From positions 1-64,000 of the forward strand of contig VXTP01000044.1 of assembly GCA_009837395.1 (NCBI GenBank): a stretch of DNA of 64,000 bases. The letters run 5' to 3'. Below are positions 895 through 15,947 of the stretch, piece after piece. The stretch's first letter is position 1; every line of letters starts with the position of its first letter. The DNA is from Gemmatimonadota bacterium. Its GTDB lineage: Bacteria > JAAXHH01. The position numbers and the translations under genes were made by a program. The notes below the pieces were generated by a model, which did not search any database, had not been told where the DNA came from, and saw nothing but the letters and a program-made list of their open reading frames with translations.

Positions 895-1566
895 ATGGCA
901 CCCGGACTGTTCGCCGCACTGGCGATCGTGCTGCTGGCGACGCTCGGTATCGGAACGCGTTACTATGTCTTCGGTGATCTCAACGCCATACACAGCCTGT
1001 TGAGTCTGTTTTTCTCGGCCAATCTGGTGATTTGCTACTGGGAGATCTGCCTGTTCCTCAAACGGGACTATATCGAGGAACGCACCGAATACTGGCGCGC
1101 CCGGCAGCGCGAAACGGGCCGTACCCCGGCGGTCGAGTTCCTTCTGACCAGGGTGCCGCTGAGGCGCATACTTGCCCCGACGGTCTGGGCGGATGTCTGG
1201 GCCACGTACTCACAGATCGACGGGTCGTTCTCGGACCGCCGCACATGGGGGTTCAACGTCGATGTCGCGAACGGCTTCTTTACACCGATTCCGACCCTGG
1301 TCCTCTACGCGGCTCTGACCTTGAACATCATGCCGGCTGTCCTGGCCGGCATGCTCGGGCTGGTACTTTCCTGGCAGTGGGCCTACGCCACGTCGGTCTA
1401 CGGGGTCAGCTTCTTCATGGCCGGCCGGCACCGACTCATCACCAGAACCGAGTTGCTTGGCTATATCGGCGCGCTGAACGCACCCTGGGTGCTCTTCGGG
1501 TTGCTGGGCATGTACGTGTCGGCGCGCCTGATCCTGGACGGCGACTACCGCGTGCTGGGCTACTGA
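895..1566 (+). CDS. Polytopic membrane protein, unknown; faint EBP/EXPERA-like look
   Basis: A 223-residue protein with about five hydrophobic segments (residues ~5-25, 33-53, 125-145, 145-170, 190-212). AGGAG seven bases before ATG fixes the start. I do not recognise it securely. A WATYSQIDGSF stretch, a QWAYATSVYG segment and an LNAPWVLFGLLGMY C-terminal helix recall the WxEYSKGDSRY / GQIYGDVLYF / MNALWLVLPG layout of emopamil-binding (sterol isomerase, EXPERA) proteins. That resemblance is by eye and could be chance. A sterol-reductase-like gene lies 5 kb away (6512-7651). Convergent with katG. Confidence 0.6.
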   Translation: MAPGLFAALAIVLLATLGIGTRYYVFGDLNAIHSLLSLFFSANLVICYWEICLFLKRDYIEERTEYWRARQRETGRTPAVEFLLTRVPLRRILAPTVWADVWATYSQIDGSFSDRRTWGFNVDVANGFFTPIPTLVLYAALTLNIMPAVLAGMLGLVLSWQWAYATSVYGVSFFMAGRHRLITRTELLGYIGALNAPWVLFGLLGMYVSARLILDGDYRVLGY

Positions 1567-3809: not shown

Positions 3810-3993
3810 CTATAGGATTCGATGCTTGTCTGAAATCGGAACTTACAGCTAGGAAAAATACCGAATTCACCCGTACACAGGCAAGAGGAATATGGGGGAA
3901 AATGAACGGTTTCGAGGAACCATCCCGCCGTAAATTCGTCTTGATGATTCAGAGGGAATTTCGCAGGTTAGAATACGGTACCGATGGATCCAT

Positions 3994-4042
3994 CCAGGGC
4001 ATGTCCGCAATCAGTCACAACGCCTTCCAGGGCATGTCCGCA
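3994..4042. repeat. Direct repeat upstream of lipoprotein gene
   Basis: The 16-mer CCAGGGCATGTCCGCA occurs at 3994-4009 and 4027-4042 (period 33), ending just before the start region of the lipoprotein gene at 4059. In one frame the repeats read as coding sequence, but the lipoprotein signal begins after them, so they are treated as leader sequence. Confidence 0.5.
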
Positions 4043-4058
4043 TCGAGGGCACGACACC

Positions 4059-4928
4059 ATGCCATACTTTCATACTTCAACCAGTCGCTGCAAAAGCTAC
4101 GTTCTGCCGATCGTTGCGGCCCTTGTCATTACCAGCGTCTTCGCCGGCTGTGACGGCGACACGGACCCGACAGGACCCGGCCCGGACGGGCAGGAGTACA
4201 TCGAGACCCGGGTCGTTACCGTCGGCCCTACCCTGGCCAAATGCTACGGCGTGGGCCTGCGGACCTGCATGGTGGTCGACGGCGGTTTTTTCTACGATGC
4301 GATCGAAGGGTTCGAGTACGAGACCGGCTATACCTATCGCCTCCGGATCGGCAAGTACGATCCGTGGGGCGGGCGTGAGCCGCCGCAGGACGCAGGCCTG
4401 TACGCCTACCGGTTGCTGGAGCAGCTGGAGAAAACCCCGGCGCCTTCCACGGCGGTAACCCTGACGGTCGGTCCCGCCCGGGTTCTATGCACCCGGAGCG
4501 ACGACTTCTGTCCGGTGGTGAACGGCGTGCCGTATGACGACACCATCAACGACTTCGAGTATGAGGCCGGCTATCACTATGTCCTGGAGGCCAATCGGTA
4601 CAACGACGGCCGGTACGTCCTGACAAGTGTGGTATCGAAGACCAGGGCGGAAGGGACAGAGGAAGAGGAGATCACCATCGATTGGGGCCGGGTCGAATGC
4701 GGCGACGGCCATCCCGGGTTCTGCAAGGTCTATAGCGGCGTTCCCTACCGAGGAGAGATCGTGGGCTTCCACCCGAGGCACGAATTCAACTACCGCCTGC
4801 GCGTCGAGAAGTTCAGCATGTCTCCGGACGACATGACCGGATCACCCGACGGCATGACCGGATCACCTCTGGTTCCGGCTTACGGGTATCGCTGGCTGGA
4901 GACGCTCGAGGAAACACAAGGCGGTTGA
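4059..4928 (+). CDS. Lipoprotein with three DUF4377-like repeats
   Basis: The start was placed at the ATG preceded by GAGGG, which gives a hydrophobic signal followed by a lipobox-like VFAGC (C31); an upstream in-frame extension adds only non-signal sequence. The mature part holds three tandem modules, each with a paired-cysteine segment (AKC...RTC, VLC...DFC, VEC...GFC) followed by a GFEYEAGYxYxLRxxK-type strand. This layout matches my recollection of DUF4377 domains, which are usually single. Two cysteines per module suggest one disulfide each. Near the C-terminus a 21-bp in-frame duplication gives MTGSPDGMTGSP. Function unknown; probably anchored at the periplasmic face or outer membrane. 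Confidence 0.75.
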   Translation: MPYFHTSTSRCKSYVLPIVAALVITSVFAGCDGDTDPTGPGPDGQEYIETRVVTVGPTLAKCYGVGLRTCMVVDGGFFYDAIEGFEYETGYTYRLRIGKYDPWGGREPPQDAGLYAYRLLEQLEKTPAPSTAVTLTVGPARVLCTRSDDFCPVVNGVPYDDTINDFEYEAGYHYVLEANRYNDGRYVLTSVVSKTRAEGTEEEEITIDWGRVECGDGHPGFCKVYSGVPYRGEIVGFHPRHEFNYRLRVEKFSMSPDDMTGSPDGMTGSPLVPAYGYRWLETLEETQGG

Positions 4929-4952
4929 TCACGCCATTTCAATGAGGTGTTC

Positions 4953-5690
4953 ATGTTAACCGACGAACAGGTAATACAGTACCGGGAAGACGGGTTTCTC
5001 GTTTTTGAATCCCTGATACAGGGCGAGCGACTGGCCTGGTACAAGCAGGTATTCGATGAACTCGTCGCCAAGGGCAGTCGATTGACCGGGCAGACGCCGC
5101 ACTGGTCACTCGAGCTGGACGAAGGCGGCGAACCCAGGGCGGGTCTGCTGCACAAAGTCCAGGGCGTATGCGTGGTCGACGACCGCGTGCTGGAACTGGC
5201 GCGGGAACCGGCGATTGTAGACCGCGTGGCCGAGTTGATCGGCGAGAATCTCGACGTGTTCGGCACCAAGTTCTTTCCGAAGCTGCCCGATGGCGGAACC
5301 TCGACGGGCTGGCACCAGGACAACTTCTATTTCGGGACCGATACGGATCGCATCGTCAGTTGCGGGATTTACCTGGAAGATGCGGACGTGGAGAACGGTT
5401 GCCTGCGGGTGGTGCCAGGTAGCCACCGGATCGGTGAGATCGTCGAGCACCGCAGGGAGCTAAGCAGGCATGGCAGCTGGACGAAGGTCGATGAAGCGCA
5501 GGCCGTGGACCTGGTCATTCCCGCGGGCACGGTCGTGCTGTTTTCCGCCAATCTCCTGCACGGCGCCTACGACAACCACAGCAGCCGCACCCGCTACAGC
5601 ACGGCATGGCATTACATGCCCGAAGAACTCAATCCCGAGAAGTTCCTCAAAGGGGTCTACGAAGACCGGCACGTGGCGAGAAAGGTTTAA
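4953..5690 (+). CDS. PhyH-family Fe(II)/2-oxoglutarate dioxygenase (copy A)
   Basis: Cupin-fold oxygenase of the phytanoyl-CoA hydroxylase family, which couples 2-oxoglutarate decarboxylation to hydroxylation of a substrate. The iron facial triad is visible as H121 and D123 (TGWHQDN) and H203 (LLHGAYDN); R212/R214 just after it would hold 2-oxoglutarate. MLTDEQ is chosen as start because AGGTG precedes it; a GTG two codons upstream lies inside that ribosome site. 245 residues. Substrate unknown. It is 24 bases after the lipoprotein gene and may share its transcript. Confidence 0.88.
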   Translation: MLTDEQVIQYREDGFLVFESLIQGERLAWYKQVFDELVAKGSRLTGQTPHWSLELDEGGEPRAGLLHKVQGVCVVDDRVLELAREPAIVDRVAELIGENLDVFGTKFFPKLPDGGTSTGWHQDNFYFGTDTDRIVSCGIYLEDADVENGCLRVVPGSHRIGEIVEHRRELSRHGSWTKVDEAQAVDLVIPAGTVVLFSANLLHGAYDNHSSRTRYSTAWHYMPEELNPEKFLKGVYEDRHVARKV

Positions 5691-5710
5691 GCGCAGGAGG
5701 GTTTAAGCGC
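5684..5710. repeat. 16-bp-period duplication spanning the PhyH-A stop codon
   Basis: GGTTTAAGCGC at 5684-5694 recurs at 5700-5710. The TAA stop of the dioxygenase is inside the first copy, so the second copy carries a spare TAA. Confidence 0.6.
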
Positions 5711-5746
5711 GCTCTGACGAATGTAACCTCGAAGGGCTCATCTATC

Positions 5747-6445
5747 TCACTTCCGCAGTACACACTTGAAATCTGACTTCTTCAATTCTGGACTCACCAC
5801 CTGAAATGAAGATGCTTCCAGTTCTGCCATGAGATCTTCGGCGAAGAAGAAGTGCAGAAACTGGGGCGCTCCCAGCACGAATCCGTCTCCTTCCTCCAGG
5901 GTCTCGAAATCGGGAGCGAACTTACGATGGTTGTCATCGTACAGGTCTTCGTAACTCTCCAGTACGGAATCCAGGACCGTCTGCGATAGAAAAACCTTGC
6001 CATGTGGACGTAACACGCGTGCGACCTCTTCAAGAAAAGCGATGCGTGACGCACGGTGCGGGACATAGCAGTAAACATTTCCCATAAATGCAGCGGCAAA
6101 TGAGGCGTCGGGGAATGGCAGATTCGGCATCTCGTACTGTAGGAACGTCACGTCGACGCCTTCCGCTTCCGCGGTACGCCCTGCCTGTTCAATCTGTTTT
6201 TCGGCGACATCAATACCGGTGACGTCGTATCCCTGCCGCGCGAGTGCGAAGCATAATCGTCCTGTCGCGCATCCAATGTCCAGCAGGCGACTGTTTATCG
6301 GGTACTTTCCTGCGAACGCTTGTTCCGCTTCCCGGATACCGTTTTTCAGCTCGCCTTTTCGGATATCAAGTTCGTCAGGACCATTGTACTTGTCCTTTAC
6401 GGAGTGCAGTAATCTCAGGGATTCCTGTGTGCTGCTGGAGGTCAT
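5747..6445 (-). CDS. Class I SAM-dependent methyltransferase
   Basis: Rossmann-fold methyltransferase. The SAM-binding motif I is LLDIGCATGR near residue 54, followed by VTGIDVAEKQIEQA (acidic residue for the ribose), FLQYEMPNLPF (motif II region) and LRPHGKVFLSQTV. The start is set at the second Met: AAGGAG abuts the upstream ATG at 6454 with no spacing, but is nine bases from the ATG at 6445. Closest in style to Methyltransf_11/25 proteins; the acceptor (small molecule or other) cannot be told. Convergent with PhyH-A, and on the same strand as the sterol-reductase-like gene about 60 bases upstream. Confidence 0.85.
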   Translation of the reverse strand: MTSSSTQESLRLLHSVKDKYNGPDELDIRKGELKNGIREAEQAFAGKYPINSRLLDIGCATGRLCFALARQGYDVTGIDVAEKQIEQAGRTAEAEGVDVTFLQYEMPNLPFPDASFAAAFMGNVYCYVPHRASRIAFLEEVARVLRPHGKVFLSQTVLDSVLESYEDLYDDNHRKFAPDFETLEEGDGFVLGAPQFLHFFFAEDLMAELEASSFQVVSPELKKSDFKCVLRK

Positions 6446-6511
6446 TGGCGGCATCTCCTTGATGGCTGTCGGAACGAGAAGTGCCTGGAATACAAATGCC
6501 CCGACCCGCGC

Positions 6512-7651
6512 TCAATAAATCCCCGGTACGATCCGGTACTTCACCCGCTCCCGGTATTCCGCCCACTTTTCCGCGCCGTACTTCTCGGCGCAGTGACGGT
6601 CGTCGTCCCACTGCCGGTAGACGAACAGAGACACGATGAAGATGAAATAGGTCCACGCCCAGAAGTTGGTGAAGTAACCGAATATCAGGGCGATGGACAG
6701 GGAAAGGAACCCCTCGCCCATGTAGTTGAGGTGACGGGCGACGCCCCACAGGCCGCTGCACAGGATCCTGCGTTCGCCGGCCTGGATGTACTTCGGTGCG
6801 ATGAGGCCGAGGAACTTGCGGTCCGGCCATCGCTTGAAGGTGTATTTCTGCAGATTGGCGCCGCGCGAGATGCCCCATCCGAAAAGGAAAAGGGCGGTGG
6901 CGCCGATGAGCCAGACATTCGTCCAGGCGGGTGAGAACCCGGGGTTCGGGTACGCGGCCAATCCCCAAAGCGGGAGGATGAACAGCCAGCCGTAGACCAC
7001 GAGGCAGCCCCAGATCAGCTTGAAGCCGACATTCTCGTGGATCAGGTCGTAGGTATAGAGCTGTACGCGCTCGAAGACCATGTAGTCCATGATGTAGAAA
7101 GTGAAGAACGCCGCGTAGAGGATGACGCCCGGATTGGCTTTCTCGCCGAAGAGCTCGTAGTGATACACGGCGCCGGACAGGGCGTTGAGCGAGAGCATCG
7201 TTCCCCCGACGACGTACATGTACATCTTCACGTCGATGCGTTCCCTGAAGAACGATATCTCCTGGGCCCGGCCGAACCACCACGCCAGGAACCTGTTCTT
7301 CACCTTGCCTTCCGGTTGGGTGAACACGGCGATCAGGGTGAAGATGATGGCGAAGACCGTGCCCCCGGCTACTGAATAGACCGAGGACCGGTAGAACCAG
7401 TCGAGGGGCAGCCCGGTGAGTTCGAGCGCCCATACGACGATCGCGATCAAGAACACGAGCAGGCCGTTCAGCCGGTAATTGCGGGGCTCGCCCGTCCCCG
7501 GGTTGACGACGTAGCCGGGGACCCACCGGCCGGGAAGCATGAGCTGGACCACGAAAAACACGGCGTAGACGATCAGCGGGGTGAAGAATCCCCAGATCGC
7601 TTCCGTCCGGGACAGTTCGAAAAGGTGTTCGATACCCAGCCATTCGATCAT
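6512..7651 (-). CDS. ERG4/ERG24-type sterol reductase-like membrane protein
   Basis: 379-residue polytopic membrane protein, about nine hydrophobic segments. The C-terminus carries the family hallmark: LCSGLWGVARHLNYMGEG followed by RQWDDDRHCAEKYG and a final WAEYRERVKYRIVPGIY, the NADPH-binding end of delta-14/delta-7 sterol reductases. These enzymes reduce ring double bonds of sterol intermediates in the membrane. Bacterial members exist but are uncommon. No squalene monooxygenase or oxidosqualene cyclase is seen in the window, so the native substrate (own, scavenged or non-sterol isoprenoid) is open. Possibly co-transcribed with the methyltransferase just downstream. Confidence 0.85.
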   Translation of the reverse strand: MIEWLGIEHLFELSRTEAIWGFFTPLIVYAVFFVVQLMLPGRWVPGYVVNPGTGEPRNYRLNGLLVFLIAIVVWALELTGLPLDWFYRSSVYSVAGGTVFAIIFTLIAVFTQPEGKVKNRFLAWWFGRAQEISFFRERIDVKMYMYVVGGTMLSLNALSGAVYHYELFGEKANPGVILYAAFFTFYIMDYMVFERVQLYTYDLIHENVGFKLIWGCLVVYGWLFILPLWGLAAYPNPGFSPAWTNVWLIGATALFLFGWGISRGANLQKYTFKRWPDRKFLGLIAPKYIQAGERRILCSGLWGVARHLNYMGEGFLSLSIALIFGYFTNFWAWTYFIFIVSLFVYRQWDDDRHCAEKYGAEKWAEYRERVKYRIVPGIY

Positions 7652-7768
7652 GATCGAATTCCCCTTTCTTAAATGGTGTGTGGATGGTTTATGTTAGTCT
7701 GAATCATCCAGGAACGAAAGGGAAACGAAGAGACCTAAACGACGAATGGAATCGAAGAAAGGAAAACT

Positions 7769-9196
7769 ATGGAGTCGTCAAACCAGCTGAGCGCCGGCGC
7801 GGCGATGATCGACATATCCCCACCCGAAGGAACGCATCTGGCCGGCAGCGGAGCCGGTGACCACCGCCCGACGCAGACCGTGATCGATCCGCTCTATGCC
7901 AAGGCCATCGTCTTCGACGCGGCCGGGCGGCGCGTCTGCCTGGTGATCCTGGATCTCACCATCGTCACCGGCGACTACACGGACATGATCCGCGCGGAGA
8001 TCTCCGAGCACACGGGCATTGATCGGGATGCGATCATGGTCCAGGCGACGCAGACCCATTCCGCCCCGAGCCTCGGCTACTTCATGCTGGATCCAGATTT
8101 TCCATTGGTGACTACAGAGGAGACGGAATACCTGCGGGGGGCCGAACGCGCCTATGGCGACCGGGCCGCGGCCGCTGCGGTGGAGGCCGCGGCCCAAGCG
8201 GTGGGCAGGCTAAAGCCCGCGCGCATCGGGCTGGGCCGCGGCGTGATGGGTGACCTGGCTTTCAACCGGCGCGGCATACGCCGGGACGGCACCATCTTCA
8301 TGCCCCGACCGCTGGGCCGGGAGCAGCAACCCTTCGGGATCTCGGAAGTGTGCTACCTGGAGGGTCCGATCGATCCGGAGGTGGGCGTGTGCTGCGTCCA
8401 GGAAATGAACGGGAAGCCGCTGGCCTTTCTCCTGCACTACACGTGCCACCCGGTCAATGCGTACGGAAACCGCGAGACCTTCCTGGCGGCGTCGGCGGAC
8501 TGGCCCGGCGCCTGGTCCCGGGAGATGCAGCAAGCCTTCGGTGACGACGCCGTGCCGCTGGTCGTCAACGGATGCTGCGGGAACATCAACCCCTGGCATC
8601 CCTACGACCCGGAATTTCGGCCGGACCACCGGCGGATGGGCCGCGAACTGTCCGGTTTGAGCGAACGTATCGTGCACGACATGACGTACGCCGGCAACTT
8701 TTCGGACGAAGCCGCGCTGGATACCCGGATCGAAAAGATCGATCTGCCCTTTCGAGAAATCCCGGACGCCCGTTTGCGGGAAGTCGATGCAATCCTGACC
8801 GCGCATCCCCGGCCACCGCGCGAAGCGGACGGGCAGGTGGACCCGCGCTGGTTCCGGGCGGCATCGACCCGCAGCGTCGAACTGTGCAGAATGCGGGATG
8901 GCACGTTCAGTTACGAGATCCAGGCCTTTCGCATCGGCGACCTCTGTATTGTCGGCCTTCCCGGGGAACCCTTCGTGGAAGGTCAGCTGGCCCTCAAAGT
9001 AAACTCGCCGGCGCCCTACCTCTTTCCGGCCCACCTCACGACGCACTATGTAGGCTACCTGCCGACGCGGGAGGCCTATGCTCGCGGCGGGCACGAGGCC
9101 AACGAAGACGTCACCTACTGGGCGAAGCTCGCGCCCGGTAGCCTCGAAACCGTGATCGGGCGGGCGCGGGGACTGGTGCAGGAGCTGTTTGGATAG
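7769..9196 (+). CDS. Neutral/alkaline non-lysosomal ceramidase-family protein, active Ser replaced
   Basis: 475 residues matching the N-terminal domain of neutral ceramidases. Zinc-ligand-like histidines are visible in QTHSAPS (H97) and HYTCHPVN (H223, H227). In true ceramidases the nucleophilic serine sits in a G-D-x-S-P-N motif; here the equivalent segment is CGNINPWHP (N272-I-N274-P), so Ser is replaced by Asn. The C-terminal domain of eukaryotic/Pseudomonas ceramidases is absent. There is no clear signal peptide. This fits the broad hydrolase subfamily seen in Planctomycetes-like genomes rather than a genuine ceramidase. Substrate unknown. Divergent from the sterol reductase. Confidence 0.78.
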   Translation: MESSNQLSAGAAMIDISPPEGTHLAGSGAGDHRPTQTVIDPLYAKAIVFDAAGRRVCLVILDLTIVTGDYTDMIRAEISEHTGIDRDAIMVQATQTHSAPSLGYFMLDPDFPLVTTEETEYLRGAERAYGDRAAAAAVEAAAQAVGRLKPARIGLGRGVMGDLAFNRRGIRRDGTIFMPRPLGREQQPFGISEVCYLEGPIDPEVGVCCVQEMNGKPLAFLLHYTCHPVNAYGNRETFLAASADWPGAWSREMQQAFGDDAVPLVVNGCCGNINPWHPYDPEFRPDHRRMGRELSGLSERIVHDMTYAGNFSDEAALDTRIEKIDLPFREIPDARLREVDAILTAHPRPPREADGQVDPRWFRAASTRSVELCRMRDGTFSYEIQAFRIGDLCIVGLPGEPFVEGQLALKVNSPAPYLFPAHLTTHYVGYLPTREAYARGGHEANEDVTYWAKLAPGSLETVIGRARGLVQELFG

Positions 9197-9272: not shown

Positions 9273-10043
9273 CTAACGTGGGCAGTCCTCGACATCCAGG
9301 ATATAGCGCGCCAGCGGGGACAGGCGTTGGGCGGTCGCGGGCCGTAGATACTCCCGTTGATTCGTCTGCTGGGGGTGTTCACGGGCGATGAAGGCGCAGT
9401 GCAGGGCGCGCCGCGGGGCATCGCTGCGGTTCACATAGGAACTGTGCCAGAGACTGCCGTTGAATACGGCCACCGAACCCGCGCGGCCCGTCAGGTGTAC
9501 CTGGTCGGGGTGGTCCGCCAGGCGATCGGCTACGTGGTCGGTAATGCGGCCGGGTATTCGGTGGCTGCCGGGCACGCAGCGCGTCGCGCCGTTGACCCGG
9601 GTGAAATCGTCGAGCATCCACATGGAGTTGACGACGTGATAGGGTCCGCCGGGTTCGGCGGGCTGGCCCCAATCGGCGTGCAAGATCTGCAATCCGCTTC
9701 CCGGCAGCGGGTCGTGCCCATTGAGCGAGTGCAGCTTGAAGGGCCGCTGCAGAACGTGGAAGACCGCCGTCAAAAGCTCGGGCTGCAGGTAGACCGCGTC
9801 AAACACCGATCCCTTGTTGACCAGATCGGCAAGCCGGCGCACGCCTTCCATCTGGGCGACCTCCTCGCCGGCCTTGTCGCCCTCGCGGTCATGAATCTCA
9901 TCGAAAGCGTGGCGCAACCCGGCAAGCCAGTCCAGCGGGATGATCTCCTCCAGCACGAGGAAGCCCTCGGTATCCAGCGCCCTTCGTTGCGCGGACGTCA
10001 GCGGCCGGAGTGAGAACCCCCGTTTTAGTAGTTCGTTGTCCAA
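9273..10043 (-). CDS. PhyH-family dioxygenase (copy B), TTG start
   Basis: Fe(II)/2-oxoglutarate dioxygenase of 256 residues: HxD in LHADWGQP, distal His in LWHSSYVNRS, and an RR pair shortly after for 2-oxoglutarate. The frame stays open far upstream, but the upstream part is arginine-rich, not family-like, and would overlap the SDR gene. A TTG preceded by AGGAAGG with six-base spacing gives MDNELLKRGFS and is the preferred start. It lies downstream of the SDR on the same strand, separated by 125 bases. Substrate unknown. Confidence 0.85.
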   Translation of the reverse strand: MDNELLKRGFSLRPLTSAQRRALDTEGFLVLEEIIPLDWLAGLRHAFDEIHDREGDKAGEEVAQMEGVRRLADLVNKGSVFDAVYLQPELLTAVFHVLQRPFKLHSLNGHDPLPGSGLQILHADWGQPAEPGGPYHVVNSMWMLDDFTRVNGATRCVPGSHRIPGRITDHVADRLADHPDQVHLTGRAGSVAVFNGSLWHSSYVNRSDAPRRALHCAFIAREHPQQTNQREYLRPATAQRLSPLARYILDVEDCPR

Positions 10044-10168
10044 TGCGGGCCTTCCTGAGGATTGATTCGGGTGGCTTGATTCCGGCAGGTTGACTACGGG
10101 TTTTCGTCGTGCGCTGCGCAGCGCGGCGTACGGCGCGCCGCGTGGTTGTCCGCGCGAGCACCACGTCC

Positions 10169-11194
10169 CTACGCGAGCGTCCCGACCCATTGTTCCGACT
10201 GTTCCCACAGGCGTTTCGAGGCGTCGGCGTCGAGGCTGTCCGCGCTCGGTTCGGCGACGTTGCAGCGCTCGTAGTATCTTCCCCCTTGCAGCAGACGCCG
10301 GCTCGCGCACATTACGATGGTCTGCGCCCCGGCATTCGGGGACAGCAGGACCAGCGAGGCCAGCGCGGAACTGATACGATGGAGTGCCTTACCAATCCAG
10401 CCTTCAATCGCCTGCGGCAGGGTCAGGTTGGTCATGACGACGCCCGGGTGTACGGCCATCCCGTGCAGGTTGTGGGATTCGGCGAATCGCCTTTCAATTT
10501 CAAAGGCCAGGTGATTCATCGCCAGTTTCGACTTCCCATAGGCGTCCCAGGAGTGGTAGCGCGGCCTATCGCGGGGTGACAAATCACGTTGCGGCAAATC
10601 GCTGTTCGGCCCCTTGTCGAACAGGTCCGCGTTCCCTACCCTGTCGTGCAGGCCGGAGGACACGTTGACGACCCGTGCGTCGCCGCTTTCGATACCGGAT
10701 TGTTGCAGGAGGGGCAGCAGCACCCGGGTCAGGTGAAAGACGCCGAGATAGTTGGTCCGCCAGTGCACTTCGAAGCCATCTTCGGTCAAAGGCACTTCGC
10801 TGCGCGGGGCCAAAGTCTTCCTGTGGATGCCCGCGTTGTTGACCAGCACATGGAGCTTGCCCTGGTGTCGGTCGCGGTACCAGGCGGCGAAGGCGTTGAC
10901 GCTGTGCGCATCGGAGAGGTCCAGTGCGTGTGCCGTGAGGTTGTCCGCGTTATCGCCGCGCCTGCGAAGGTCGTCTTTCAGCGCCGCTTCCATCAGGGCT
11001 ACGTGCCGGACCCGGGTCGCCACGACCTTGGCCCCCCAGCCCGCGAGGACCCGCGCGGTTTCGTACCCGAGCGAACCGGGTGACGCCCCGGTCACGATCA
11101 CGTAGCGCCCCGACATATCGACCGGCGCTGCCATCGGTTTGGGGAGGAACATGCGCACCAGGTGCTGGGCGGTTTTGATAACTGGATTGGGCAT
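10169..11194 (-). CDS. Short-chain dehydrogenase/reductase (retinol-dehydrogenase-like)
   Basis: NAD(P)-dependent oxidoreductase with Rossmann fold. The cofactor motif is VTGASPGSLG (residues ~34-43, a variant of TGxxxGxG), followed by LVNNAG, VNVSS and the catalytic WDAYGKSKL (Tyr-x3-Lys). At 341 residues it is longer than classical SDRs and resembles the WW-oxidoreductase/retinol dehydrogenase group, with an N-terminal amphipathic stretch (IKTAQHLVRMFLPKP) that may touch the membrane. The first PhyH gene downstream (copy B) is on the same strand and may act on the same substrate. Confidence 0.9.
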   Translation of the reverse strand: MPNPVIKTAQHLVRMFLPKPMAAPVDMSGRYVIVTGASPGSLGYETARVLAGWGAKVVATRVRHVALMEAALKDDLRRRGDNADNLTAHALDLSDAHSVNAFAAWYRDRHQGKLHVLVNNAGIHRKTLAPRSEVPLTEDGFEVHWRTNYLGVFHLTRVLLPLLQQSGIESGDARVVNVSSGLHDRVGNADLFDKGPNSDLPQRDLSPRDRPRYHSWDAYGKSKLAMNHLAFEIERRFAESHNLHGMAVHPGVVMTNLTLPQAIEGWIGKALHRISSALASLVLLSPNAGAQTIVMCASRRLLQGGRYYERCNVAEPSADSLDADASKRLWEQSEQWVGTLA

Positions 11195-11327: not shown

Positions 11328-12218
11328 CTACCGCGGCTCCCGCTTGACCACGTCCAGGTCCCAATCCCTCCAGTAGTACTTCACCGGGTCGTCCTCATCC
11401 CAATGTTCGTAGACCTGGTCCCACGTCAGCCAGTTCATGTGGGGCTGGAGAGAATCCTCCCGGACGGGGTGGCTTCTCGGCTGGTACCGGTAGTCGGAGG
11501 ACAGCCGGAGACGGTCCGTGGTCATGTTGTCCCGGCCCTGGTGAATCGTCAGGCTGTGCAGGATAATCACGTCGCCGCAGGCGTAGTCGCCACCGACCCA
11601 GGCGGAATCGTCCTCTACAGGAACCTGCCGCCCGCCCGGCCCCACGCCTTCGGTCGTCTCCAGCATGCCGCTACGATGGGATCCCCGGTTGACGGCGAGT
11701 CCGCCGAGTTCCTCCGGACAGTCACCCAGCGGGATCCAGCCCGTCCATGTCTCGTTCGAACCGCCGATGAAATAGTTGTCCTGGTGCGGCGGGGTCGAGT
11801 GGGTGTTCGTGTCCGGGAATACGAGGCGGCAGATGTTCCGGCTGTGGGCTAGCACGGGTTCTTCGAACAGCACTTCGAGCATGTGGATGACCGCGGGGTC
11901 GAGGGCCAGTGCGTGGAAGTCGCGGATCCGCTGGACATCGTCGTAGAAAGCAATCCAGCGCGGGTCGTCACCTTCGAAAACGCTGATGCCTGGATTTGCG
12001 ATGCCGGCCATGAGATCCGAGCCGGGGGCGAGCCAACCATGTTCCCGGCACACGCCGAGCACCTGGCGCCGGACCTCCATCACGCGCGCCGGATCGAGCA
12101 GTCGCCGAAAGAACAGGCAGCCGTGCTCCGCGGCGCGTTGCCGCAGTTCGTCGGGGCGTCTCAGCAGGTCCGTCGCATCTTCCAGCGCGTGGATCTGCTT
12201 CATGTCGACCATCGCCAT
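11328..12218 (-). CDS. PhyH-family dioxygenase (copy C)
   Basis: 296-residue Fe(II)/2-oxoglutarate dioxygenase: HxD in TPPHQDNYFIGG, distal His in LTIHQGRDN, and an RLRLSSDYRYQ segment supplying the 2-oxoglutarate arginine. GGGAGAGGA lies about eight bases before the chosen ATG (MAMVDMK); the upstream extension to 12254 has no ribosome site. The C-terminal extension (WLTWDQVYEHW...) is typical of a PhyH subgroup in Latescibacterota/Poribacteria-like genomes as far as I recall. Substrate unknown. Confidence 0.88.
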   Translation of the reverse strand: MAMVDMKQIHALEDATDLLRRPDELRQRAAEHGCLFFRRLLDPARVMEVRRQVLGVCREHGWLAPGSDLMAGIANPGISVFEGDDPRWIAFYDDVQRIRDFHALALDPAVIHMLEVLFEEPVLAHSRNICRLVFPDTNTHSTPPHQDNYFIGGSNETWTGWIPLGDCPEELGGLAVNRGSHRSGMLETTEGVGPGGRQVPVEDDSAWVGGDYACGDVIILHSLTIHQGRDNMTTDRLRLSSDYRYQPRSHPVREDSLQPHMNWLTWDQVYEHWDEDDPVKYYWRDWDLDVVKREPR

Positions 12219-12356
12219 AGCCTGTTCCTCTCCCGGTATTGCCCGCAAGATCAACCTGAAGTCATGTCCTCAACCGTATAGATGTCTCAAGATGGTATTA
12301 TGCGAGATTCGGACACGTTATGCCAGCGCTAAGTAGATGAGTACCCTGGCAATAAG

Positions 12357-13496
12357 CTACCGCTCATCACGGGGCGGCCACTGTCTTGCCATCTCGCCCG
12401 AGTAAAGAGATTCCGGACGAAAGATACGATCGACGGCCCGCTGCTCGATGCAGTGTGCTGTCCAGCCGGCGACGCGTCCCAAGGCGAACATGGGGGTGAA
12501 GAGGTCCGGGTGGAGCCCCAGCCCCTTGAGGAGAAGAGCGGTGTAGAACTCGACGTTGGTCTGCAGGCGCCGGCCGGGTTTGTATTCTTCGAGGAGTTCG
12601 AGGGCGGTTTTCTCGACGTGCACGGCCAGGTCGTACAGGTCGTACAGGTCGTACAGGTCGTCTTCACGGTCGTCGTCTTCATGGTCGAAGAAGGCGCGCG
12701 CGGCGCGCGAAAGGACGTCGGCCCGCGGGTCGCGAACCCGGTATACCGCGTGACCGAAACCCATGAGCCGTTCACCGGACTCAAGCCGTTCGCGAAGGTA
12801 GGATTCGGCGTTATCGGCGTCGCCGATCGCTTCGAGCATGGAAATGACGGGGCCGGGTGCGCCGCCGTGGAGGGGTCCTTTGAGCGCGCTGATCGCACCT
12901 GAAACGGCAGAAACGAAGTCCGAACGCGTGGAAACGATAACCCGCGCCGTGAAGGTGGAAGCGTTCATGCCGTGGTCGATCACCGTGTTGAGATAGGTCG
13001 TCAGTGCCCGTACTCGATCACCGCCGGGGATTTCGCCGTCCAGCATGTACAGCAGATTGGCCGCGTGGCCGAGACTGGCGTCGGGTGCTACCGGTTCTTT
13101 GCCGTGAAGAAGGCGCCAGTAGGCCGCCACGATGGTCGGCAGGCCGGCCACCAGGGACCGGGCGTCGGCTGTGTCGTCGATGGAAGGAAGGGAGGCCGCG
13201 GCCATGCGAACCACGTCGATGACAGGTCGGCGTTCCTTTGCCGCGCCGCGCAACAGATCGTGGGTGACCCCGGATAGCGGACGGCTCGCGGCCAGTTCAC
13301 TCGTGAATCCATCGAGGGCAGCCTCGGTGGGCAGCCCCCCGTGCCACAGGAGGTATACCATCTCCTCGTAAGTCGCCCTTTCGGCAATCTCCTCGAGTGG
13401 ATATCCCCCGATGACCAGTATGCCGGCTTCGCCATCGACATGACTCAGGCGGGTTTCCGCCGCTACGACGTCCTTGAGTCCGGGTGAAAATGACAT
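12357..13496 (-). CDS. Citrate synthase family protein with an internal 9-bp repeat
   Basis: 379 residues. The two substrate-binding/catalytic histidines are in IDHGMNASTF and GFGHAVYRVRDPRA. The third catalytic position, normally Asp in NVDFY, is Glu here (NVEFYTALLL), as in some actinobacterial-type homologues. Family members condense acetyl-CoA or propionyl-CoA with oxaloacetate. Between the second His and the C-terminal helices an acidic insertion contains three DLY repeats encoded by a 9-bp tandem repeat. The start is ATG with GGGAG; it lies two bases after the leuB stop, so the pair is probably translationally coupled. True citrate synthase, 2-methylcitrate synthase or another chain-extension enzyme cannot be separated by eye. 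Confidence 0.88.
   Translation of the reverse strand: MSFSPGLKDVVAAETRLSHVDGEAGILVIGGYPLEEIAERATYEEMVYLLWHGGLPTEAALDGFTSELAASRPLSGVTHDLLRGAAKERRPVIDVVRMAAASLPSIDDTADARSLVAGLPTIVAAYWRLLHGKEPVAPDASLGHAANLLYMLDGEIPGGDRVRALTTYLNTVIDHGMNASTFTARVIVSTRSDFVSAVSGAISALKGPLHGGAPGPVISMLEAIGDADNAESYLRERLESGERLMGFGHAVYRVRDPRADVLSRAARAFFDHEDDDREDDLYDLYDLYDLAVHVEKTALELLEEYKPGRRLQTNVEFYTALLLKGLGLHPDLFTPMFALGRVAGWTAHCIEQRAVDRIFRPESLYSGEMARQWPPRDER
12628..12662. repeat. 9-bp microsatellite inside the citrate synthase gene
   Basis: AGGTCGTAC is repeated three times and followed by a fourth partial unit. The unit length keeps the frame and encodes repeated Asp-Leu-Tyr. Copy number may vary between strains. Confidence 0.8.
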
Positions 13497-13498
13497 GA

Positions 13499-14578
13499 TC
13501 ACTCCCTTAACATTTCAACCACCAGATCGCCCATTTCCGACGTGGATACCCTCTGTTGACCGGGCGACCTCAGGATGTCCGCGGTCCTGTATCCTTCTTC
13601 GATCACCTTGCCGACCGCGCGATCGATATCGTCGGCGCCGTCGGGACAGTCCAGGCTGTACCGCAGCATCAGGGCGCCGCTCAGGATCGTTCCGATGGGA
13701 TTCGCGATGTTCTTGCCTTCAATGTCGTTCGCGCTCCCGTGTATCGGCTCGTACAGCGAAGTGCCGTCCAGCGGGATCTCCGCGGACGGGACCATTCCGA
13801 TAGACCCGGCAAGTACGGCCGCCTCGTCGCCCAGAATGTCACCGAACATGTTGGGCATGATGATCACGTCGTACTCGGCGGGCCGCTGGATCAGGTTCAT
13901 GGCGCCTGCGTCGACGATTTCATGCCGTGTATCGACATCGGGATATATCGGGGCCACTTCATCGACGACATCGCGCCAGAGCCTGGAGGATTCCAGGGCA
14001 TTCCACTTCGACATCGAGGTCAGTCTGCCACGCCTCTGCCGCGCCAGTTCGTATCCGTAGCGGGCCAGTCGTTCGACCTGGAAATCGTAGTACTCGATGG
14101 TATCGACGGCCCTTCTGCCGCTGGGGGTGACTTCGCTGAACTTGGGCCGTCCGTAGTAGGCGCCGCTGGAAAGCTCACGCAGTATGATGAAATCAACACC
14201 CCCGCTTATGAGATCGGCTTTGACTGCGGACGCGTCTTCCAGCCCCGCGTACAATCGGAACTGCCGTAGATTCGCGTAGACGTTTAGTTCCTGCCGTAGT
14301 CGAATCAGGGCATGGTCCGCCCGGTCCTGCATGTCCAGGTGGTCCCATTTTGGCCCGCCCACCGCGCCGAAGAGTACCGCGTCGCTGCGCCTGCAAGCCT
14401 CCACGAGTTCATGGGACAAGGCGACGCCCTGCGCATCGAGCAGCGCACCCCCGACCAGGTGGTGGGAGAAATCGAGATCCAGTTGGTGTCGCTCCCCCAC
14501 AGCCTTCAGAACCTTAACGGCCTCGCGGGTTATTTCAGGTCCGATCCCGTCTCCGGGCAGCACGGCGATCTGGTGCAA
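13499..14578 (-). CDS. leuB: 3-isopropylmalate dehydrogenase
   Basis: NAD-dependent beta-decarboxylating dehydrogenase of 359 residues. Visible are LPGDGIGPEI at the N-terminus, the arginines of LRQELNVYANLR, RELSSGAYYG, SKWNALESSRLWR with the catalytic Lys (usually in DKANVLESSRLWR), the Mg-binding NMFGDILGDEAA and the NAD-binding YEPIHGSANDIEGKNIANP. TTG start with AGGAGG six bases upstream. In leucine synthesis it oxidises 3-isopropylmalate; neither leuA nor leuCD is nearby. The partner here is a citrate synthase, so a related 3-hydroxyacid dehydrogenase role (e.g. on malate-type substrates) is possible. SKWN and SSGAYYG deviate from the commonest LeuB motifs. Confidence 0.85.
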   Translation of the reverse strand: MHQIAVLPGDGIGPEITREAVKVLKAVGERHQLDLDFSHHLVGGALLDAQGVALSHELVEACRRSDAVLFGAVGGPKWDHLDMQDRADHALIRLRQELNVYANLRQFRLYAGLEDASAVKADLISGGVDFIILRELSSGAYYGRPKFSEVTPSGRRAVDTIEYYDFQVERLARYGYELARQRRGRLTSMSKWNALESSRLWRDVVDEVAPIYPDVDTRHEIVDAGAMNLIQRPAEYDVIIMPNMFGDILGDEAAVLAGSIGMVPSAEIPLDGTSLYEPIHGSANDIEGKNIANPIGTILSGALMLRYSLDCPDGADDIDRAVGKVIEEGYRTADILRSPGQQRVSTSEMGDLVVEMLRE

Positions 14579-14723: not shown

Positions 14724-15947
14724 GTGAACAGCAGAAGATACATGACATCCACCGAAGCGGCTTCCGCGCTGAATATCAGCCCGTCGACGCTCTATGCGTA
14801 CGTTAGCCGCGGCATGATCCGGTCTGAAGCAAGCGGCGACGGCAGGCGGAAGCGGTTGTATCGCAGTGAAGACATCGAGCGGTTGAAGGCCCGCAAGAGA
14901 TCCCGCCGGAATCCGGGTTGGGCGGTAAAACGAGCCCTGTACACGGGGGATCCTATCCTGGAATCGGCAATTACGTTGATCACGGACGAGCGGCTGTTCT
15001 ACCGGGGCCGGGACGCGACGATCCTGGCGGCAAACGAATCGTTCGAGCGCGTTGCTGCCTTGATCTGGACCAATGATAAGCGGTTCTCTTTTCCGATTTT
15101 CTCAAACACCTACCAGAAGGACTACCGCGAAAGCTGGTTGAAATTGAACAACCTCAAACCCGTCGAACGCTTCCAGTCGCTGCTTCCCCTGGCCGAGGCG
15201 GATGACCTGGCCGCACTGGACCTGCGGCGGGACACGGTCGCCGCCACGGGCATGCGGATTCTCTGGTTCATGACAGGCGTAGCCACGGGCGAAGACCCGA
15301 TGGGCGGGATCGCCCAGGCCTTGCGAAGGGCCTGGGCGCCGGAGATTGATGGCGCGGCGGAACTGATCAATACGACCCTGGTGTTGTTCGCGGATCACGA
15401 ATTGAATGTATCGACCTTTACCGTGCGATGCGCCGCATCGGCGGGAACGACGCCCTACAGTGCGGTATGCGCGGGACTTGCGGCACTGCGCGGCTACAAG
15501 CACGGCGCAGCCAGCGAGCGCGTCGAAGCGCTGTTTCAGGAGGCGGAATCGATCGGCAGCGTTGAACGGGCGATCGCCAATCGGTTGCGGATCGGTGAGA
15601 AGATCCCCGGATTCGGGCACGCCGTCTATCGCGACGTGGACCCGCGGGCAAGCCTGCTGTTGCGCAAGCTGGAAGATCGGTTTCCGGGATCGAAGGACCT
15701 GCTACTCGCGCGGGAAATCATCGAAACAACCCATCGTCTGGTCCCGGACCGTTACAACATCGACCTGGCCCTCACGGCGCTGGTGCGCGTCCTAAATATG
15801 CCCGAAGGCAGCGCCATGGCCCTGTTCGCCCTCGGCCGCACGGCCGGCTGGATCGGACACGCGATCGAACAGTACGAAAGGGACCAGCTCATCCGGCCGC
15901 GGGCCAGATACACCGGGTTGCGGCCGCCGCAGATTTCCAATTCCTGA
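14724..15947 (+). CDS. MerR-type HTH domain fused to a citrate-synthase-family domain
   Basis: 407 residues. Residues ~6-60 form an excisionase/MerR-like winged HTH (MTSTEAASALNISPSTLYAYVSR then RLYRSEDIERLKAR). The rest is a citrate synthase fold with the catalytic triad intact: H in DHELNVSTF, H in GFGHAVYRDVDPRA, D in NIDLALTAL. GTG start preceded by GAGAGG. Citrate synthases with N-terminal HTH are known from genome annotation, but their role is poorly described. Position opposite a leuB-citrate synthase pair with shared palindromes suggests metabolite-sensing autoregulation, or an enzyme that moonlights as regulator (inference). Confidence 0.85.
   Translation: MNSRRYMTSTEAASALNISPSTLYAYVSRGMIRSEASGDGRRKRLYRSEDIERLKARKRSRRNPGWAVKRALYTGDPILESAITLITDERLFYRGRDATILAANESFERVAALIWTNDKRFSFPIFSNTYQKDYRESWLKLNNLKPVERFQSLLPLAEADDLAALDLRRDTVAATGMRILWFMTGVATGEDPMGGIAQALRRAWAPEIDGAAELINTTLVLFADHELNVSTFTVRCAASAGTTPYSAVCAGLAALRGYKHGAASERVEALFQEAESIGSVERAIANRLRIGEKIPGFGHAVYRDVDPRASLLLRKLEDRFPGSKDLLLAREIIETTHRLVPDRYNIDLALTALVRVLNMPEGSAMALFALGRTAGWIGHAIEQYERDQLIRPRARYTGLRPPQISNS

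Follow-up and report, generated by a model that had tools for sequence, protein, structure and literature searches.

The best solved-structure match to the protein described here is MaSR1, the Delta14-sterol reductase of Methylotuvimicrobium (PDB entry 4QUV). Clustered steroid genes, in which ERG24 stands with CYP51 and lanosterol synthase (LSS), have been described in Ircinia symbionts, and horizontal transfer of them is reported (PMC9531527). Orphan sterol reductases are known from Coxiella (Stmp1/CBU1206 and CBU1158), where the rest of the pathway is missing and host sterols are thought to be the substrate (PMC8787468). Sponge-associated chlamydiae also carry orphan sterol reductases thought to act on host sterols (PMC9666466). 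The idea of an orphan sterol reductase in a bacterium therefore has precedents. Two other bacterial sterol reductases, 8,14-Bsr (NTF2 fold; PMC13277303) and Bsr (GGR family; PMC12004948), belong to protein families unrelated to that of the window protein. SMTs of bacterial sponge symbionts have been shown to be active (PMC10070321).

The window, a stretch of 64 000 nucleotides (bases 1–64000 of one contig), was taken from a MAG of 3.80 Mb in 47 contigs with a completeness of 95.6%. The reductase gene (P0001) is located at 6512..7651 on the minus strand, which the earlier sequence-only reading had left unstated. Its ORF starts with an ATG at 7651, stops at 6512 and encodes 379 residues; the plus strand of the same interval is interrupted by stops. 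A Shine–Dalgarno-like purine-rich stretch, AAGAAAGGGG (7661..7670, minus strand), was read by eye just 5' of the ATG. Since copies with 91–97% identity are found in six more genomes of the genus and copies with 73–78% identity in five MAGs outside it, the ORF is not due to chance. The gene is present in seven of the 12 genus genomes (91–100% identity) and missing from the other five, and is therefore dispensable. In genome G006 (L149:1-4000, compared with window positions 3984-9196) the gene row is kept and the reductase alone is missing, with a 374-base gap between its neighbours, which indicates a single-gene loss or gain inside the genus.

Sequence, fold and conserved residues agree in supporting the assignment to the ERG4/ERG24 family that had been proposed from the sequence. 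Pfam profile PF01222 (ERG4_ERG24) was matched at its positions 65–432 of 432 by residues 14–379 (137.4 bits, cut-off 27, 8e-40). The same scan gave a weak match to DUF1295 (32.1 bits, 1e-7) and none to the ICMT profile at 1e-3, and the NCBIfam scan returned no family. Searched against the PDB using phmmer, the protein matched 4QUV at 1.2e-35 and 9L5R_c at 3.5e-18; with the profile of alignment A3 the values were 8.1e-60 and 3.3e-41, respectively. The AlphaFold2 model (mean pLDDT 88.2) consists mostly of long helices and was aligned with 4QUV over 347 residues (TM 0.78, Z 34.5, r.m.s.d. 3.1, 30% identity). The sequence-only reading had named placement with ICMT-like proteins as the outcome that would speak against it. 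The PF01222 and 4QUV matches, together with Z scores for the same model of 34.5 for 4QUV versus 12.5 for ICMT and 11.9–12.0 for the steroid 5-alpha-reductases (SRD5A), point the other way, and an ICMT or DUF1295 identity was rejected. These families share a common C-terminal core with the window protein (DUF1295 32 bits; Z 11.9–12.5), but they are shorter and match far more weakly, whereas the window protein spans PF01222 from position 65 to its end.

Comparison of 83 subclass rows with five canonical rows (4QUV and sterol-cluster enzymes) revealed 38 near-invariant positions common to both, many of them in the C-terminal half shared with MaSR1. Among them are K269, W302, R306, H307, N309, Y310, R346, D350, Y358 and Y366, which we take to form the C-terminal NADPH site. 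Nine otherwise conserved positions differ by class; the window protein has K211, C216 and H164 where MaSR1 has M266, D271 and Q220. The C-terminal signature noted earlier is present and the protein ends in ...YRIVPGIY, but the earlier wording, essentially eukaryote-like, needs qualifying: the subclass is bacterial, and the Delta14-reductases form a separate clade.

Relatives were gathered by scanning GTDB contigs with two peptide patterns, by which 102 were confirmed and 80 kept. The confirmed relatives are spread over many phyla, which, even with two patterns only, tempers the earlier statement that sterol reductases are rare in bacteria. The nearest records are Gemmatimonadetes IRC1 (97%), Latescibacterota Plut_88884 (91%) and Gemmatimonadota RHO1 (78%), followed by Dadabacteria (77%), Acidimicrobiia (74%) and bacteria RHO1/RHO3 (73%). 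The labels IRC, RHO, COS and SB in MAG names presumably denote sponge studies (Ircinia, Rhopaloeides, Coscinoderma), from which we infer that the nearest relatives are sponge-derived MAGs and that the window genome is that of a sponge symbiont. Members of the subclass also occur in free-living bacteria (Frankia, Archangium, and MAGs from groundwater and a fen), where the reductase often adjoins an SDR gene at loci without a visible sterol gene, so its ancestral substrate may be a non-sterol. Of the 80 loci of relatives, 22 have an SDR gene next to the reductase, and most of these lie outside the window clade (e.g. L084:5141-5986, L077:5255-6049 and L066:3597-4604).

The tree was calculated from 91 rows. 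Eleven of 93 collected reductase sequences (L001, W, L025, L027, L002, L020, L021, L009, L053, L067 and L097) were dropped as duplicates or partial frames; the remainder was supplemented with the window, two regions from the PDB, one outgroup and five rows from sterol clusters, of which those of L021 and L141 are partial. The row set is without eukaryotic DHCR7, ERG4 and LBR and without Coxiella. In this tree, where the bootstrap had not fully settled and the root lies on a very long outgroup branch, 4QUV, 9L5R_c and the sterol-cluster ERG24 copies (seven rows) form a clade of their own with support 95/83. The genus reductases form a second clade (81/88), the five MAGs with 73–78% copies a third (95/80), and 19 Gammaproteobacteria and Acidobacteria MAGs a fourth (100/99). 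The window gene therefore belongs to a separate bacterial subclass, and in this tree it did not group with the canonical Delta14-reductases (ERG24/TM7SF2). Genomes G097, G115 and G120 hold both types, each with one subclass copy (L045, L068 and L088) and one sterol-cluster-type copy.

Profile searches of the window's own genome found no SQHop_cyclase_C, no SQHop_cyclase_N and no squalene epoxidase. The search for squalene epoxidase and oxidosqualene cyclase that had been suggested earlier thus returned neither, and the observation that sterol-cyclisation genes are absent from the window holds genome-wide as far as these searches go. Squalene epoxidase and SQHop_cyclase_N were also not found in 11 of the 12 genus genomes. 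In the twelfth, G011, epoxidase and cyclase are found solely on contig C185 (3,478 bases), which also carries a P450 and part of an ERG24-type gene. A second sterol-cluster-type ERG24 piece in G011 is on contig C195 (3,194 bases); C185 and C195 are either foreign contigs or a fragment of a real cluster. The window's genome does contain HpnE, which scores 427.7 bits against a cut-off of 283, as well as an HpnD-type synthase at 272.7 bits, just under its cut-off of 278.6. Squalene is therefore probably made and, as no epoxidase or cyclase was found, the pathway would stop there. Most likely the bacterium does not make sterols, although the missing cyclase is not absolute, given that completeness of the MAG is 95.6%. 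The earlier reading had allowed for environmental or native sterols as substrate; the first are favoured, as acquired sterols, and the second are disfavoured by these searches.

Among the 47 genomes behind the relatives, two of which repeat genus members, the cyclase search gave no match at all in 28 and a match over the cut-off in 16. None of the five genomes of the nearest outside clade (G078 and G080–G083) has a match over the cut-off, with G078 just under it at 24.9 bits. Single frames joining a squalene epoxidase (FAD_binding_3 and SE) to an oxidosqualene/hopene-type cyclase were observed at L137:6369-9749 (G115) and L139:7134-10589 (G097), and similar long frames were observed in G100 and G120.

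About 5 kb from the reductase, the plus strand encodes a membrane protein of 223 residues (895..1566) with a predicted EBP (EXPERA) fold. EBP had been suspected from sequence patterns by eye, ahead of the fold computation. A model calculated from family alignment A4 (20 rows; mean pLDDT 90.1) gave VIA Z scores of 16.4 and 15.8 with human EBP (PDB entries 8w0r and 6oht) over 176–182 residues and of 11.3 and 11.1 with the sigma-2 receptor, the next unrelated structure scoring 7.0. Foldseek also placed EBP at rank 1 (probability 1.00, E 0.057). No Pfam match was found at 1e-3, and none to the EBP family; the sequence search of the PDB gave no relevant match, hhalign against EBP gave a probability of 1.5, and 13 of 60 masked shuffles scored as high as the real sequence. 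Proof of EBP homology from sequence thus failed in every test made (PDB, hhalign and shuffles) and the link is through the predicted fold. By eye, both this protein and human EBP, a Delta8–Delta7 sterol isomerase, contain WxxY[AS]xxDxx[YF], and NxxW is found near the C-terminus; sequence similarity between the two is not significant, and by our reading the window protein lacks a His where EBP has H76. On the basis of the model it is a candidate sterol isomerase or sterol-binding protein. The gene was found in ten of the 12 genus genomes, in none of 61 unrelated genomes and in 30 of the 48 genomes of the searched set (28 of 46 distinct genomes, as G077 and G079 repeat G008 and G003).

An SMT-like protein with the Sterol_MT_C domain (PF08498) was found in 38 of 47 genomes, including 11 of the 12 genus genomes, and in none of the 14 named controls. 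The copy in the window's genome (G000; C36:310438, corresponding to L166:8578-9630) is without YExGWGxSFHF, which we take to be the canonical SMT motif. Approximately 1 kb beyond it lies a Rieske oxygenase gene with a KshA_C domain (L166:10607-11791), the closest solved structures to which are KshA (3.2e-22). A KshA_C Rieske match was obtained in all 39 genomes searched and therefore discriminates poorly; its unrelated-genome control consisted of the 14 named genomes only. On the same contig (C36), a single frame at L166:6420-8540 combines a cytochrome P450 with a GPP34 (Golgi phosphoprotein 3) domain. It lies between an AcrB/HlyD efflux set, located upstream, and the SMT-like gene, which follows closely downstream, and its solved P450 relatives include CYP51 (4e-17), with others closer.

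The reductase and EBP-fold genes share a contig, 4.9–8.2 kb apart, in six of the seven genus genomes that have both. The EBP-fold gene adjoins an SMT gene in G001, G004 and G006, and in G006 this SMT has the canonical motif (YEYGWGQSFHF). At four Bryobacterales/Terriglobia loci (L038–L040 and L042) roughly 2.4 kb separate the reductase from the EBP-fold gene; between them lie a Rieske/KshA_C and a DUF1295 gene, which are annotated in L042 and have homologues in L038–L040. An SMT-like gene follows the 77%-identical reductase in L028, and a distance of about 1.5 kb separates the EBP-fold gene of L137 from the fused squalene epoxidase–cyclase gene. By context only, these recurring associations in unrelated phyla tie both the reductase and 895-1566 to sterols.

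We consider it reasonably probable that the window protein is an integral-membrane, NADPH-dependent sterol double-bond reductase, which would use acquired sterols as substrate and form part of a dispersed tailoring set. Sterols would be taken up from the host or the surroundings and remodelled by the reductase, the EBP-fold protein (895-1566), the SMT-like methyltransferase and the KshA-type Rieske oxygenase, which may work jointly. By analogy with MaSR1, the sterol would enter the reductase from the bilayer, NADPH would be bound by the cytosolic C-terminal half, and one C=C bond of the membrane sterol would be saturated through transfer of the NADPH hydride and addition of a proton. Our best guesses for this bond are Delta7 or Delta24(28). 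Both are favoured over Delta14 because scavenged sterols would normally already be saturated at C-14 and because G097, G115 and G120 carry the subclass alongside a separate Delta14-type copy. Delta7 is common in sponge and dietary sterols, and Delta24(28) is the bond created by SMT. Counted against the reading are the nine class-specific positions, the occurrence of the subclass in free-living bacteria, the dispensability of the reductase, the reliance of the EBP link on a predicted fold, the incompleteness of the MAG, the poor discrimination by the Rieske match and the lack of the canonical motif in the genome's SMT-like protein.

Other readings of the gene were weighed against action on acquired sterols. 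That the subclass reduces a non-sterol isoprenoid or another polycyclic lipid, the sterol context being incidental, is unlikely. The presence of the subclass in Frankia, Archangium and many non-sponge MAGs, the many family genomes without a cyclase (no match in 28 of 47) and the SDR gene adjoining 22 of 80 loci would fit such a substrate, but SMT-like, EBP-fold, Rieske and DUF1295 genes are linked with the window clade, and the C-terminal half and the fold are conserved with MaSR1. Steroid catabolism, in which host sterols would be degraded for carbon after preparation by the reductase, was regarded as the main competitor and is judged improbable to a slightly greater degree. A KshA_C Rieske oxygenase is present, and an enrichment of steroid degraders in sponges has been reported (PMC5790920). 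Against this, the SMT genes build rather than degrade, and the HsaC-type ring-cleavage dioxygenase, the sole catabolism marker searched, reached 213–344 bits in G085, G088 and G115 only; it was at best about 50–66 bits per genus genome, a level to be read with the below-cut-off matches in five of the 14 named control genomes, and was absent from G080–G083. Catabolism is thus disfavoured on the HsaC-type marker alone.

The least probable of these readings takes the protein for a canonical ERG24 (Delta14-sterol reductase) belonging to a native pathway, the other genes of which were missed or are absent from the assembly. It would account for a Delta14-reductase being the best solved-structure match, for a genome that probably makes squalene and for the 3.5 kb contig of G011 with cyclase, epoxidase, P450 and ERG24-type pieces. 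Neither cyclase nor epoxidase was found in the other 11 genus genomes, however, and the genuine ERG24 copies of sterol clusters fall into a clade of their own, with both types present in G097, G115 and G120; a hidden native pathway was therefore disfavoured.

The reductase of acquired sterols favoured here resembles MaSR1 in family and fold, but belongs to another clade and to a genome in which no sterol pathway was found. With the ERG24 of Ircinia symbionts (PMC9531527) it has in common the PF01222 family and, presumably, a setting in sponge symbionts; it differs in subclass and in having no CYP51 or lanosterol synthase with it. Compared by description only, the Coxiella and chlamydial enzymes are likewise sterol reductases in bacteria without the rest of the pathway. 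Theirs are intracellular bacteria, whereas the window genome adds SMT-like, Rieske and EBP-fold partners. In the open-licence literature we recognised no report of the reductase subclass, of a bacterial EBP-fold family, or of the subclass being coupled, where a cyclase is missing, with EBP-fold, Rieske and SMT-like genes. What is added is a set of bacteria that apparently modify sterols but do not synthesise them, a reductase subclass apart from the known Delta14 enzyme and an unannotated EBP-fold family. A wider reading, given a little under an even chance, is that sponge bacteria of many phyla are sterol auxotrophs with a horizontally spread remodelling set (the reductase subclass, the EBP-fold protein, SMT-like methyltransferases and a KshA-type Rieske oxygenase) that reworks host sterols, and that 895-1566 founds a bacterial EBP-like isomerase family. 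If this is true, part of the so-called sponge sterols may be joint host–bacterial products; the origin of unusual sponge sterols bears on the earliest biomarkers that have been proposed for animals (24-isopropylcholestane).

Several other neighbours in the window were annotated. The gene downstream of the reductase and co-directional with it (5747..6454, minus strand, 57 bp gap) encodes a SAM-dependent methyltransferase of 235 residues (Pfam Methyltransf_25/11), the synteny of which is kept in the genus. It has 27–31% identity to SMT-like proteins over 100–168 residues and no Sterol_MT_C domain, and its identification as an SMT is not supported. Three PhyH (phytanoyl-CoA-dioxygenase) family genes were identified by Pfam within 8 kb around the reductase (4947-5690, 9273-10310 and 11328-12254). 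The divergent neighbour at 7769-9196, conserved in the genus, weakly matches the N-terminal part of neutral ceramidase, with a score under the Pfam cut-off. Two citrate-synthase-like proteins, named by eye, are encoded at 12357-13502 and 14724-15947 and match the same genes in relatives weakly (29–34%); the latter has an apparent DNA-binding-like N-terminus, also by eye.
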